From Bacteroidia bacterium (GTDB lineage: Bacteria; Bacteroidota; Bacteroidia; J057; JANWXU01): a stretch of DNA of 58,988 bases. The notes beneath the pieces are model-generated. The model saw only the letters and a program-made list of their open reading frames with translations. It had not been told where the DNA came from and did no database searches. This document shows, one piece after another, positions 51,661 through 56,363 of the stretch. The position numbers and the translations under genes are program-made. The number at the start of each line of letters is the position of its first letter. Position 1 is the first letter of the stretch. The stretch covers positions 1 to 58,988 of the forward strand of contig JANWXU010000009.1 of the NCBI GenBank assembly GCA_025057395.1. The letters are read 5' to 3'.

Positions 51661-53130
51661 TTAAAATAGATAGTCCAAAATTAAATTTATATGCCACATA
51701 TCGACGCGGTTAATGCGGAAATTATCAGGAATTTCTTTAGGTTTTTGAGCTGTTTTGTTGACGATGAGAAATCTTATATTTAAGCCCTCTAGGTAGCTAG
51801 TAAATTTGTACTGAAATTGGATCAAGAAATGGTAGTAGGCAGGAAGTCCATATTTATTGAGAGGTACTTTTTGTATGTCAGGTGGATTGACTTGGCTAAT
51901 GCCTAATTCTGTAAATAAATTTTTGATAGGTAAGGGAGAGCTGTATTTAAGTGTTAATGCGTATAAATCAGCATTTCCTTCTAGGCGCTCCCTAGGTAGG
52001 CTTACAAAAAATACTTCTCTTCCCCATTCTCTTGGAAATAAAAATCTTCCTTGGGGGCCAATCCGTAAATAGTTCATGGAAAATATGCCTTTGCCTAAAG
52101 TAATGCCTATTTTACCTCCTATTCCCCAGGCTTTTTCGTTGGGCAGGATATAAGCCTTGGAAGGATTTGGATTTCCACCCTCTTGGATTGGCGTTTGAAA
52201 AAAGCCTTGTATTCCTATGACTGGAGCTGTTTCAAAAGTTTTAATTTTCAGTTCAGTTTGTAGAAAAGTAGTATTGAATACGTTTTCAACAAGATAATTC
52301 CACCCCTCTAGCTGCCATTGATAGACCTTACTTTTTTTATGATATTTAGCTCCTATGAGCGCAATTCCTTTGGTTCGAGTATTATTTTTATAAGATTCGG
52401 CTACGCCTAGGGGGTTACGCCCAAAAGGATATACACCAAAAGATTCTTCGATAGAATACCAATCTACAGTACCACGAAGCGTAGCTTGATTAAAAAATGC
52501 GGCTATTATATCCCATTCAAAAAAACGATATTCTGCTAGTATTCCACTAAAGATATTAGGGCGCATTCGGTTGTCTTGTTCGTTGAGTAAGGGAGTATTA
52601 ATTTTTTGCCGCCCTATTTTTAACAAGAAATTTTTTTTCTGATAACTTAAGTATAACTCTTCCAGGCGATCTAGGTCATGGGTGTTGTGAATCCGGTTCA
52701 TATCGTACAGGAGAATTTCATAGCGGTTTCCTGCTCCTGTTATAGGGTCTGCTTTTCTTATATTATTTTCGAAAAGCTGGAATACGAAAAAGCCACTAAA
52801 ACCTATCCGAAAACCTTTCCAAAAAGGAGTAGTATAGCCAAGGCCCGCCCCTATTGCCATAGTATTGTAATCTAAGAGCGGACCCTGGTTGATAGTTTGC
52901 ATATAATTAGAACGAAGATGAATAGAAATTCCTCCTTTTTGTAGAAAATATTTGAGTTTTCGAGGGCAAGTATCTGAAGGAAATTGAAATTGGTGGCAAT
53001 ATTTGCCTAAGTCTGTTACCCCACTATAGGGCGTACTTGCTAAGTTTTGTGTATGCTCGTGAACAGAATCTTGAGCGATTTGGGTGGTTGTGGGGGTGGG
53101 CTGGTTTTGACTTAAGGCACTTTGCAACAA
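51661..53130 (-). CDS. Predicted outer-membrane beta-barrel protein, signal peptide frameshifted
   Basis: The open frame starts with TTG at 53130 and has 489 residues, with a barrel-like pattern: IGAGLGYTTPFWKGFRIGFS, FLLKIGRQKINTPLL, and a last strand INLILDYLF ending in Phe. The general look is that of porin-like channels. The N-terminus lacks a full signal peptide in this frame. In another frame, an ATG at 53171 begins MARKTISVFSFFF, and adding one base to the T9 run on the minus strand (53133-53141) joins it in frame to YLLQSALSQ, a perfect signal peptide. So the intended start is 53171. Its neighbours on the 5' side are the YeeE-like genes; a role in passage of sulfur compounds is inference. 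Confidence 0.72.
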   Translation of the reverse strand: MLQSALSQNQPTPTTTQIAQDSVHEHTQNLASTPYSGVTDLGKYCHQFQFPSDTCPRKLKYFLQKGGISIHLRSNYMQTINQGPLLDYNTMAIGAGLGYTTPFWKGFRIGFSGFFVFQLFENNIRKADPITGAGNRYEILLYDMNRIHNTHDLDRLEELYLSYQKKNFLLKIGRQKINTPLLNEQDNRMRPNIFSGILAEYRFFEWDIIAAFFNQATLRGTVDWYSIEESFGVYPFGRNPLGVAESYKNNTRTKGIALIGAKYHKKSKVYQWQLEGWNYLVENVFNTTFLQTELKIKTFETAPVIGIQGFFQTPIQEGGNPNPSKAYILPNEKAWGIGGKIGITLGKGIFSMNYLRIGPQGRFLFPREWGREVFFVSLPRERLEGNADLYALTLKYSSPLPIKNLFTELGISQVNPPDIQKVPLNKYGLPAYYHFLIQFQYKFTSYLEGLNIRFLIVNKTAQKPKEIPDNFRINRVDMWHINLILDYLF

Positions 53131-53132
53131 GT

Positions 53133-53141
53133 AAAAAAAAA
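53133..53141. repeat. Nine-base homopolymer at the frameshift
   Basis: A run of nine A on the plus strand (T9 on the coding strand) lies in the signal-peptide codons of the outer-membrane protein. A run of ten would restore one uninterrupted frame from 53171. Such tracts are prone to slippage in cells and to errors in sequencing. Confidence 0.85.
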
Positions 53142-53236
53142 GGAAAAAACTGAAATCGTCTTTCTAGCCATATGAAGTAAGGGTTAATTAATGGTTAATT
53201 CATAAAACGAGTTTTTTTGTGTTAAACTAATTTTTC

Positions 53237-53833
53237 TTAATGGGGTAATTTTTCTCTTAATAGGCCGTATATCCATGTTCCGGCGATTGCTGAAAGTAGA
53301 GTGACCACAATTACAGTTGCGCCTGTACCAACTTGAGCAAATAAAGGTCCGGGGCAGGCCCCTGTCATTGCCCATCCTATACCAAATAATAGCCCTCCAA
53401 AAATTTGTCCTTTGTTAAACTTTTTAGGGTGAAATTCAATTTTTTCACCGTAGATGGTTTTGATATTAAACTTTTTAATGAGAGCTACTGAGACGGCTCC
53501 TACTAATACTGCACTTCCGATTATTCCATACATGTGAAAAGATTGCAATCGAAACATTTCTTGAATGCGAAACCAGCTAATAATTTCTGCTTTGACAAAA
53601 ATGATCCCAAATATCCATCCTACTACTAAGTATTTTAGGTTGTAATACCATTTATGAGTTAAATGGCTTTCATTAAGGCATATGGCATCTAGGGAGCGAA
53701 CTTCAAAATCAGTATTTGTTTCTGTTAATTCTGTGGCTACAGGAATGCCGTTTACCTCACTTTTTGGAGGTAAGGCCTCACCTTGATAATTAACTATCTT
53801 TTTTTCAATTTTTTCAATATCTACGGTTTGCAT
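53237..53833 (-). CDS. YeeE/YedE-family transporter half (DUF6691-like)
   Basis: This 198-residue membrane protein has a polar N-terminal extension (about 1-65) and four membrane helices. The diagnostic motif is GGLLFGIGWAMTGACPGPLF, where the cysteine would bind or carry sulfur. It resembles the second half of the YeeE/TsuA thiosulfate transporters. The first half is encoded by the gene directly upstream (gap 83 nt). The two halves probably assemble together. Confidence 0.88.
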   Translation of the reverse strand: MQTVDIEKIEKKIVNYQGEALPPKSEVNGIPVATELTETNTDFEVRSLDAICLNESHLTHKWYYNLKYLVVGWIFGIIFVKAEIISWFRIQEMFRLQSFHMYGIIGSAVLVGAVSVALIKKFNIKTIYGEKIEFHPKKFNKGQIFGGLLFGIGWAMTGACPGPLFAQVGTGATVIVVTLLSAIAGTWIYGLLREKLPH

Positions 53834-53916
53834 GTTTTTTTACTTTTAAATTTGTAATAGCAGTTTTACGGTATGCTACATGTGTATAGTATAAATAATG
53901 TTAAGTTTAGTCAAAA

Positions 53917-54486
53917 TTATAAGCCAAGTATGAGAGGAAGAATCCAATTGGCAGTAATAAACCCTCCTACCATAAAGCAACAAGTAGCAATAAGAGAAGG
54001 AATTTGTAAGGTAGAGAGCCCCATAATAGCATGACCACTTGTGCATCCGCCGGCATAGCGCGTTCCAAAGCCTACTAGAAAACCTCCTACTACCATCAGG
54101 AGCCAACCCTTAAGGGTAAGAAGATTTTGCCAAGAAAACAGTTGAGGTGGAACTAAACCATTGTAATCATTTATTCCATAGCGGGCTAGCTCCTGCACTA
54201 GCGTTGGATGAACTTTTACAGGACTTGGCGAGCTCAAGAAATGAGCGCTAAAAATACCTCCTAGCAAAATACCTGCAACAAAAAATAAATTCCATACTTC
54301 TTTTTTCCAGTCGTATTTAAAGAAAGGAATGTTGGCTGGAAAGCAAGCTGCACAAATGTGCCGTAATGACGAAGAGATACCAAAAGATTTATTTCCAATA
54401 ATCAATAAAGTTGGTACTACTAACCCTATTAAAGGCCCTGCTACATACCAAGGCCATGGTTGTTTTAATATTTCCAGTATGTTCAT
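53917..54486 (-). CDS. YeeE/YedE-family transporter half
   Basis: This 189-residue protein has four or five membrane helices and the signature VGFGTRYAGGCTSGHAIMGL with its conserved cysteine. A second cysteine pair lies in the loop ICAACFPANIPFFKYDW. The family (YeeE/TsuA) takes up thiosulfate in enterobacteria, passing it along membrane cysteines. The gene follows the rhodanese gene by 26 nt and precedes the partner half. Confidence 0.9.
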   Translation of the reverse strand: MNILEILKQPWPWYVAGPLIGLVVPTLLIIGNKSFGISSSLRHICAACFPANIPFFKYDWKKEVWNLFFVAGILLGGIFSAHFLSSPSPVKVHPTLVQELARYGINDYNGLVPPQLFSWQNLLTLKGWLLMVVGGFLVGFGTRYAGGCTSGHAIMGLSTLQIPSLIATCCFMVGGFITANWILPLILGL

Positions 54487-54512
54487 ATTTTTATGCTCTA
54501 GATTGTAAGTTG

Positions 54513-54848
54513 TTATGAGTTATTTTTTAACCTTTCTACAATTTCTTTTACATCTTGCCAAGCTCCGCCATTTATTACGTTTTGAATTCCACTACTTTCT
54601 AAGATAGACTTAGCTATTCCGCTTCGATTCCCTGTACGACAAAAAACTAAGATATATGGCTTTTCACGTAACACTGGCAGATAGTTAGTGATTACATCTA
54701 GCGGAATATTCACTGAGCCTGGTACATGCCCCATCTCAAATTCAGCAGGTGTTCTAACATCAACTAAGTAGGCTCCTTTTTTAACGTATTCTTCAATAGC
54801 CGATGTTGTACTATTGTTTTTGAAAAGATTATTAAAAAAGTTATACAT
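54513..54848 (-). CDS. Rhodanese-domain protein
   Basis: This 111-residue rhodanese carries YLVDVRTPAEFEMGHVPGS and the active loop FCRTGNRSG with the persulfide cysteine. It has no signal peptide. It lies between the MBL-rhodanese gene (gap 96 nt) and the YeeE genes and could hand on sulfur that enters through the YeeE proteins. Confidence 0.92.
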   Translation of the reverse strand: MYNFFNNLFKNNSTTSAIEEYVKKGAYLVDVRTPAEFEMGHVPGSVNIPLDVITNYLPVLREKPYILVFCRTGNRSGIAKSILESSGIQNVINGGAWQDVKEIVERLKNNS

Positions 54849-54878
54849 GGCTTTGTAATTTTATTAAATTGATAAGTG

Positions 54879-54937
54879 ATACCAGGGATAGCTTCTTATT
54901 AAGGCATAAGAAAGAATCTATCCCGGGTATTTTTTTT
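54879..54937 (+). terminator. Strong hairpin with T-run on the plus strand
   Basis: ATACCAGGGATAG (54879-54891) pairs with CTATCCCGGGTAT (54918-54930) with one mismatch; TTCTTAT/ATAAGAA adds an inner stem. Eight T residues follow on the plus strand. On the minus strand, the direction of both flanking genes, the U-run is missing. It may terminate an antisense transcript or act as a processing or stability element between the two sulfur genes. Confidence 0.6.
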
Positions 54938-54944
54938 AGATAAT

Positions 54945-56363
54945 TTAAGATAAGTTCATCACTTTACTTTGGCAGACGTAATTTGTGCGTGGTACATTAG
55001 TTTGAGCAATTGCCTGAAAGCCACCCTCGATTTCCGTAAAATTTCGGTAGCCACGAGCTTGCAGAATACTTGCTGCCATCATGCTTCGGTATCCTCCTTG
55101 GCAGTGAATGTAAAAATGTGCCTTGGGATCAATTTCTCGAATCCACTCATTGATATAAGCTAGGGGTTTATTATAAGCTTCTTCTACATGTTCAGCTGCA
55201 TATTCACTTTCTCGGCGTACATCGAAAACAAGGCTTTCGCCCGCCTTAAATCTTTGGGCGAATTCTTGAGCGGTGATACGGTTCACGGTGTCTACTTCTT
55301 TGCCCGCATCTATCCAAGCTTGGATTCCACCCTTGAGGTAGCCAATTACATTATCAAATCCTACTCGGCTCAGACGCATTACTGTTTCCTCCTCTCTTCC
55401 GGGCTCCGTAACTAACAATAGCGGCTGTTTTACGTCTACAATTAAAGTACCTACCCATGGAGCAAATTCACCATCTAAACTAATGTTTACAGACTGGGGG
55501 ATAAAAGCTTTCCAGAAAACAGTATCGTGTCGACTATCTAAAATAAGTGCGCCACTTTCTTCGGCGGCTGCCTCGAATTCTTCAGGAGTTAGTGGCCTAA
55601 GTCCTTTATTTAAAACGTTATCATAGCTTTCGTAGCCCATTTTGTTCATTACTGCATTCATCCCAAAGTAACCTGGTGGAGGGGTTAGGCCTTGTAGTAC
55701 TGCTTTTATAAAGGCCTCTTTATTGGGTTGATTTAGTGCGTAATTTACCTTTTTTTGGTTGCCAAGGGTATCTACAGTTTCTTTCATCATGTTTTTACCG
55801 CACGCACTGCCTGCACCGTGCCCCGGGTATACAATAATATCATCTGGAAGGGGTAAAATCTTATTATATAGGCTTTCGTATAGAAGCCCTGCTAGTTCTT
55901 CTTGAGTTAGTCCCGTAGCCTTTTGTGCTAAATCAGGGCGACCCACATCTCCTAAAAACAGAGTATCGCCTGTGAAAATAGCATACTCTTTGCCATTTTC
56001 GTCGATTAATAGGAAAGTAGAACTTTCCATTGTATGTCCTGGCGTATGGATTACTTTGATTTTTACATTTCCTACTTCAAAAACTTGGTTATCTTCTGCA
56101 ATAATTGCTTCGAAAGCAGGATTAGCTGTAGGACCGTAGACTATAGGGGCTCCCGTCTTTCTACTTAAATCTAGGTGCCCTGATACAAAGTCAGCGTGGA
56201 AATGCGTTTCAAATATATATTTAAGTTTTACGTTATCTTTACGGATTCTCTCTAAATAGGGTGTAGTTTCCCTTAGAGGGTCTATAATTGCCGCCTCCCC
56301 GTTACTGGTTATATAATAAGCGCCTTGTGCTAAACAGCCCGTATAAATTTGTTCTACTTTCAT
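54945..56363 (-). CDS. MBL-fold hydrolase fused to two rhodanese domains (persulfide dioxygenase-like)
   Basis: This 472-residue protein has an ETHE1/Blh-like metallo-beta-lactamase domain (about 1-230) with ETHFHADFVSGH and, later, HTPGHTMES and YPGHGAGSACG. Two rhodanese domains follow. The first (about 265-350) has lost the active cysteine (the loop reads VTEPGREEE). The second (about 365-462) keeps it in HCQGGYRSM. Family members oxidise glutathione persulfide to sulfite and pass sulfur to the rhodanese site. It is the first gene of the sulfur cluster and has a 576-nt gene-free stretch upstream. Confidence 0.93.
   Translation of the reverse strand: MKVEQIYTGCLAQGAYYITSNGEAAIIDPLRETTPYLERIRKDNVKLKYIFETHFHADFVSGHLDLSRKTGAPIVYGPTANPAFEAIIAEDNQVFEVGNVKIKVIHTPGHTMESSTFLLIDENGKEYAIFTGDTLFLGDVGRPDLAQKATGLTQEELAGLLYESLYNKILPLPDDIIVYPGHGAGSACGKNMMKETVDTLGNQKKVNYALNQPNKEAFIKAVLQGLTPPPGYFGMNAVMNKMGYESYDNVLNKGLRPLTPEEFEAAAEESGALILDSRHDTVFWKAFIPQSVNISLDGEFAPWVGTLIVDVKQPLLLVTEPGREEETVMRLSRVGFDNVIGYLKGGIQAWIDAGKEVDTVNRITAQEFAQRFKAGESLVFDVRRESEYAAEHVEEAYNKPLAYINEWIREIDPKAHFYIHCQGGYRSMMAASILQARGYRNFTEIEGGFQAIAQTNVPRTNYVCQSKVMNLS

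Follow-up and report, generated by a model that had tools for sequence, protein, structure and literature searches.

A run of nine Ts on the minus strand parts the signal peptide of an OprD-like porin from its barrel, and on balance we judge that this T9 is an under-called T10, a length-dependent consensus error that leaves the assembly one base short. The miscount is favoured because the gene is joined in relatives and because, elsewhere in this assembly, long A/T runs disrupt genes of unrelated function in a similar manner. In the living cell the tract would then be ten Ts and the porin, with an ordinary signal peptide, would start at the ATG at 53171, the apparent frame break arising where the assembly consensus misses one T. 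The locus would thus be, with somewhat better than even probability, an ordinary intact porin gene closing a sulfur-compound gene cluster.

A signal peptide and a porin barrel in different frames

The porin frame occupies 51661..53130 on the minus strand of the window (the whole stretch of DNA analysed, 58,988 nucleotides) and encodes 489 aa with a match to Pfam PF03573. It is open from 53163 to 51664, with a TAG at 53166-53164 immediately before, and within the open stretch from 53163 there is no ATG ahead of the tract; the first start codon is the TTG at 53130, and the frame offers no better start. The N-terminal half lies in a short, signal-peptide-like frame (53112..53171, minus strand) of 19 codons, which opens with the ATG at 53171-53169, translates as MARKTISVFSFFFTCCKVP followed by a stop and ends at 53112. 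From 53171 onward the minus strand reads ATGGCTAGAAAGACGATTTCAGTTTTTTCC-T9-ACTTGTTGCAAAGTGCCTTAA: the short frame runs through ATG, GCT AGA AAG ACG ATT TCA GTT TTT TCC into the T9, then continues out of frame as ACT TGT TGC AAA GTG CCT TAA. The T9 (53133..53141, A9 on the plus strand) forms codons 11-13 of the ATG frame, and as the site of the frame break it is one base short of the joined reading. With one T added, both frames fuse into the product MARKTISVFSFFFYLLQSALS|QNQ, a standard signal peptide which the porin possesses in the joined reading only, as its homologues do. Re-reading the frames bore out an earlier note on this DNA in its coordinates and in its account of the signal-peptide-like frame that begins at 53171 and is lost at the T9, of a long frame lacking a proper start, and of a T10 that would yield one signal peptide with a typical cleavage site.

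The TTG at 53130 could be taken as the true start of a porin with no signal peptide, being the first listed start codon of its frame, but we hold this to be very improbable: a barrel porin requires export, the signal peptide lies just upstream in 79 of 80 homologues, and the residues after the TTG resemble the end of a signal peptide, with the TTG-started product opening on the cleavage-site end LLQSALS|QNQ.

A distant OprD-like porin in a sulfur gene cluster

The porin exceeds the Pfam cut-off for OprD (PF03573, 30.8 bits against a cut-off of 25), scores well under the cut-off of the NCBIfam Opr model, and is the only OprD match in the whole genome (4.08 Mb, 244 contigs). The solved structures nearest by sequence are the Occ porins OpdO and OpdH, both weak matches (PDB E about 1e-3). 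It resembles the OprD/Occ family at a distance, and differs from it in belonging to a subfamily from Bacteroidota whose genes accompany YeeE/YedE sulfur genes. Of the Sec signal peptide and 18-strand barrel by which the family is recognised, the former is seen for this porin in the joined reading.

The ATG at 53171 sits 65 bp downstream of one YeeE/YedE-type sulfur transporter half (Sulf_transp / DUF6691, 53237..53833), which neighbours the porin in 75 of 80 homologue loci; the other half (Sulf_transp, 53917..54486) does so in 72 of 80. Beyond them, also on the minus strand, lie a rhodanese-domain protein (54513..54848), a further member of the cluster, and a persulfide-dioxygenase-like MBL-fold/rhodanese fusion (54945..56363) found beside the porin in 70 of 80 loci. 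A TsdA-like cytochrome is present in the same locus in 34 of the 80. The stretch 51661-56363 of the window, with the porin, the YeeE/YedE pair, the rhodanese and the MBL-rhodanese fusion, matches a cluster widespread in Bacteroidota (70-75 of 80 loci). Judged by gene context only, the porin likely provides outer-membrane passage for a sulfur anion such as thiosulfate.

Since the remaining 489-codon frame is unbroken and the neighbourhood is conserved, the porin is not an old pseudogene. A genuine deletion of one base could have inactivated it recently in this strain, homopolymers being prone to mutation, in which case the T9 would be real and uniform; the remaining frame is nevertheless intact, the gene cluster is complete and a null of such age is rare a priori, and we regard such a deletion as a slim prospect.

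Homologues join the two halves and lack the tract

A six-member alignment, searched against genomes with a single representative of each species, gave 571 relatives, and the best 80 of these (38-56% identity, mostly Cyclobacteriaceae) form the homologue set. No close homologues came from a single-protein search of genome contigs, and no same-genus or same-family genome was present among 60 relatives. In 79 of the 80 homologues an ATG and a hydrophobic signal sequence stand in frame just upstream of the conserved barrel, whilst no A/T run of 8 or more occurs in any of the 80 5' ends (a run of 7 occurs in two). Only this assembly, then, shows the split; one expects an intact gene, and as a switch the tract is not conserved. 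The comparison of N-termini that the earlier note had proposed gives no homologues that lack a signal peptide and start at the TTG, which the note had named as a refuting outcome, and it agrees with the note's claim that signal peptide and porin are one gene split by a single base.

Neither the length nor the position of the tract is out of the ordinary for this genome, given a signal peptide rich in Phe. In the 4.08 Mb assembly, A/T runs of exactly nine occur 232 times and longer ones 45 times, the window has a GC content of 37%, TTT makes up 83% of Phe codons, and four other genes in an 820-kb sample of the assembly carry an in-frame T9 within a hydrophobic N-terminus. What is unusual, by comparison with the homologues, is that the tract parts two halves which homology puts together.

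Ribosomal -1 frameshifting at T-TTT-TTT could in principle fuse the frames, and the slippery heptamer is indeed in phase with the ATG frame, yet no downstream stem was found (z about 0.2 and 1.4) and the layout is not conserved in the 80 homologues, which leaves this reading scarcely credible.

Frame breaks concentrate at the longest homopolymers of the assembly

Coding potential was scored either side of every tract in the 820-kb sample, which was enriched for tracts of at least 9 and yields small numbers. A stricter scan replaced an earlier search for frame changes, whose mixed background model was too blunt and whose candidates were mostly gene boundaries, and a separate scan aimed at short N-terminal fragments picked up the porin together with an M23 (EnvC-like) peptidase. 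In-frame coding A/T tracts numbered 460, 160 and 92 at lengths 7, 8 and 9. Nine apparent shifts at length 7 were inspected in part, three at length 8 proved to be gene boundaries, and the only break found at length 9 was that of the porin. At length 10, 13 tracts were in frame and 4 broken (including dnaX), and at length 11 none was in frame and 1 was broken. With dnaX left out and the M23 peptidase counted, 5 of 18 tracts of 10 or more break frame in the sample, compared with 0 of 92 at length 9 (p = 7e-5).

The genes affected are of mixed function: a LolD-like (L118:4252), a GldA-like (L124:1525) and an Opp/Yej-like ABC ATPase (L025:5470), each broken at an A10; a TPR/PD40 protein broken twice, at an A11 (L117:5752) and a C9 (L117:6601); and the M23/EnvC-like peptidase on contig C29, where a T10 (L107:1526-1535) splits the signal peptide as in the porin. 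In contig coordinates the tracts of the three ATPases lie at C189:16251, C215:17324 and C173:16470. Counting the porin and the C9 and excluding dnaX, six of seven breaks are one base short, whilst the seventh, in the GldA-like gene, has an extra base. For the LolD-like gene the family profile has space for four residues here, a spacing consistent with an A11 where the assembly has an A10. An argument that this gene is essential, and its break therefore false, was dropped, as three intact paralogues score equally; with these present, the break is not necessarily false.

Two AT-rich genomes of the same order served as controls. None of their 22 coding tracts of 10 or more was broken, against the 5 of 18 here (Fisher p = 0.013), and their sole true break was in dnaX. 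An apparent control break at L224 is likely a gene boundary, and another at L237 is an antisense reading of an intact gene. The control genome G001 (52% GC) was excluded from the rates, as its small amount of training sequence led to an excess of false calls.

The excess of breaks thus grows as tracts lengthen and takes no account of what the genes do, as expected of homopolymer error in an assembly, and the breaks in the ABC ATPase, TPR/PD40 and M23 genes are probably errors of this kind. Lying at the longest homopolymers and in mixed genes, mostly lacking one base and absent from the controls, they match consensus under-calling, and for the porin we infer an error introduced by sequencing or assembly, not a change within the cell. 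Some findings count against this. The assembly is otherwise reliable at the inferred true length, with 13 A/T10 tracts in frame, and this T9 could therefore be real; the GldA-like break, moreover, is an extra base and not a missing one. A sequencing or assembly error had been the main alternative in the earlier note, and the breaks at long homopolymers in unrelated genes now make it the better-supported reading. In a GeneTack survey, homology-validated singleton frame breaks were expected to be mostly sequencing errors (PMC3711429); the porin resembles these singletons in having a one-base break in one genome that is absent from homologues, and differs in that breaks here concentrate at the longest homopolymers of one assembly.

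Possible slippage during transcription and the split dnaX genes

The dnaX gene is split at an A10 in the window's genome (L017:2941-2950; C66:22941 in contig coordinates) and in G008 (L240:1280), and apparently also in G001 (L267:1242). Two-frame dnaX genes with ten As have been described as transcriptional slippage genes, and dnaX was excluded from the counts because it is a known gene of this kind (PMC3711429). These splits suggest programmed dnaX slippage in the group.

The porin could be read likewise: the DNA would truly carry a T9, and RNA polymerase would add a U in some transcripts, so that some porin is made from the ATG at 53171. Insertions by RNA polymerase predominate at A/T runs and increase with run length (PMC5574713), in Shigella mxiE the two frames are united when one U is inserted at a run of Us (PMC1088944), and the split of dnaX at an A10 here and in two relatives fits the known dnaX type (PMC3711429). 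The porin shares with mxiE and with Thermus dnaX a U (or A) run between frames that one added base would join, as in mxiE (PMC1088944), but the conserved run and two frames that would mark programmed slippage are found in no porin homologue. The sample moreover has at least 92 coding A/T9 tracts that stay in frame, which suggests that slippage at nine is not costly, and hence weak. We consider this reading of the porin improbable.

Possible phase variation and other poly-T runs

The earlier note had also pointed to tracts that switch surface proteins on and off by slippage. Were the T tract often to gain or lose bases by slippage in replication, cells would alternate between exported porin, at tract lengths that bring the frames together, and none (T9), and the sample sequenced would have been mostly OFF. 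The geometry suits such a switch: the T9 in codons 11-13 is a homopolymer inside the start of the coding sequence, with signal peptide and barrel in different frames, as in phase-variable genes, and porins and surface proteins are frequent targets of such switches (PMC3711429). A 5' homopolymer in the gene of an outer-membrane protein, where one base turns ON to OFF, is likewise the arrangement of Helicobacter pylori sabA (PMC2715451) and of the Campylobacter jejuni tracts (PMC8808543). The porin differs from these in its nutrient-type character, its place in a sulfur cluster and a tract that is not conserved and is seen here at one length. A phase-variable gene would be expected to retain its tract, but no run of 8 or more stands among the 80 homologues; T9 is also commonplace in the genome, and the same kind of break strikes a peptidoglycan peptidase as well as ABC ATPases. 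The literature, when searched, offered nothing specific on homopolymer switching within the signal peptides of Bacteroidetes. With the tract in none of 80 homologues, the gene in a sulfur-metabolism cluster and breaks in unrelated genes, the on/off switch is not supported, and we rate it unlikely.

That it keeps some probability is mainly because of two other poly-T runs in the assembly, one (T51) upstream of a predicted secreted protein and one (T30/T14) in another signal peptide. The T51 run (L187:1166-1216, contig C188) precedes the ATG of the predicted secreted protein (MRTFISTIIIPLLLGC...), which has no Pfam match, by about 61 bp and adjoins two promoter-like elements of the form TAnnTTTG, the Bacteroidota -7 motif. 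Contig C79 starts (L188:1-60) within T30-AATATA-T14, and this sequence shares its frame with the signal peptide of a serine hydrolase that resembles beta-lactamases (PF13354). Both runs may be low-complexity assembly artefacts or real poly-T contingency loci, and for the T51 run in particular the choice lies between an artefact of assembly and a promoter switched by poly-T.

Implications for the porin and its assembly

If the T9 is an under-called T10, as we favour, homopolymer frame breaks at lengths of about 10 or more in this assembly should be given no biological meaning, and annotation of the porin should begin at the ATG at 53171 and present it as the exported product of a sulfur gene cluster that is conserved. 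Bacteroidota are better known for switching via DNA inversion, and a real break would mean that in this phylum a porin of nutrient type is switched by poly-T. It is a distant prospect, but the bacterium might then toggle the export of its sulfur-cluster porin by poly-T slippage in the signal peptide, and the porin gene would be one among several contingency loci of the poly-T kind.
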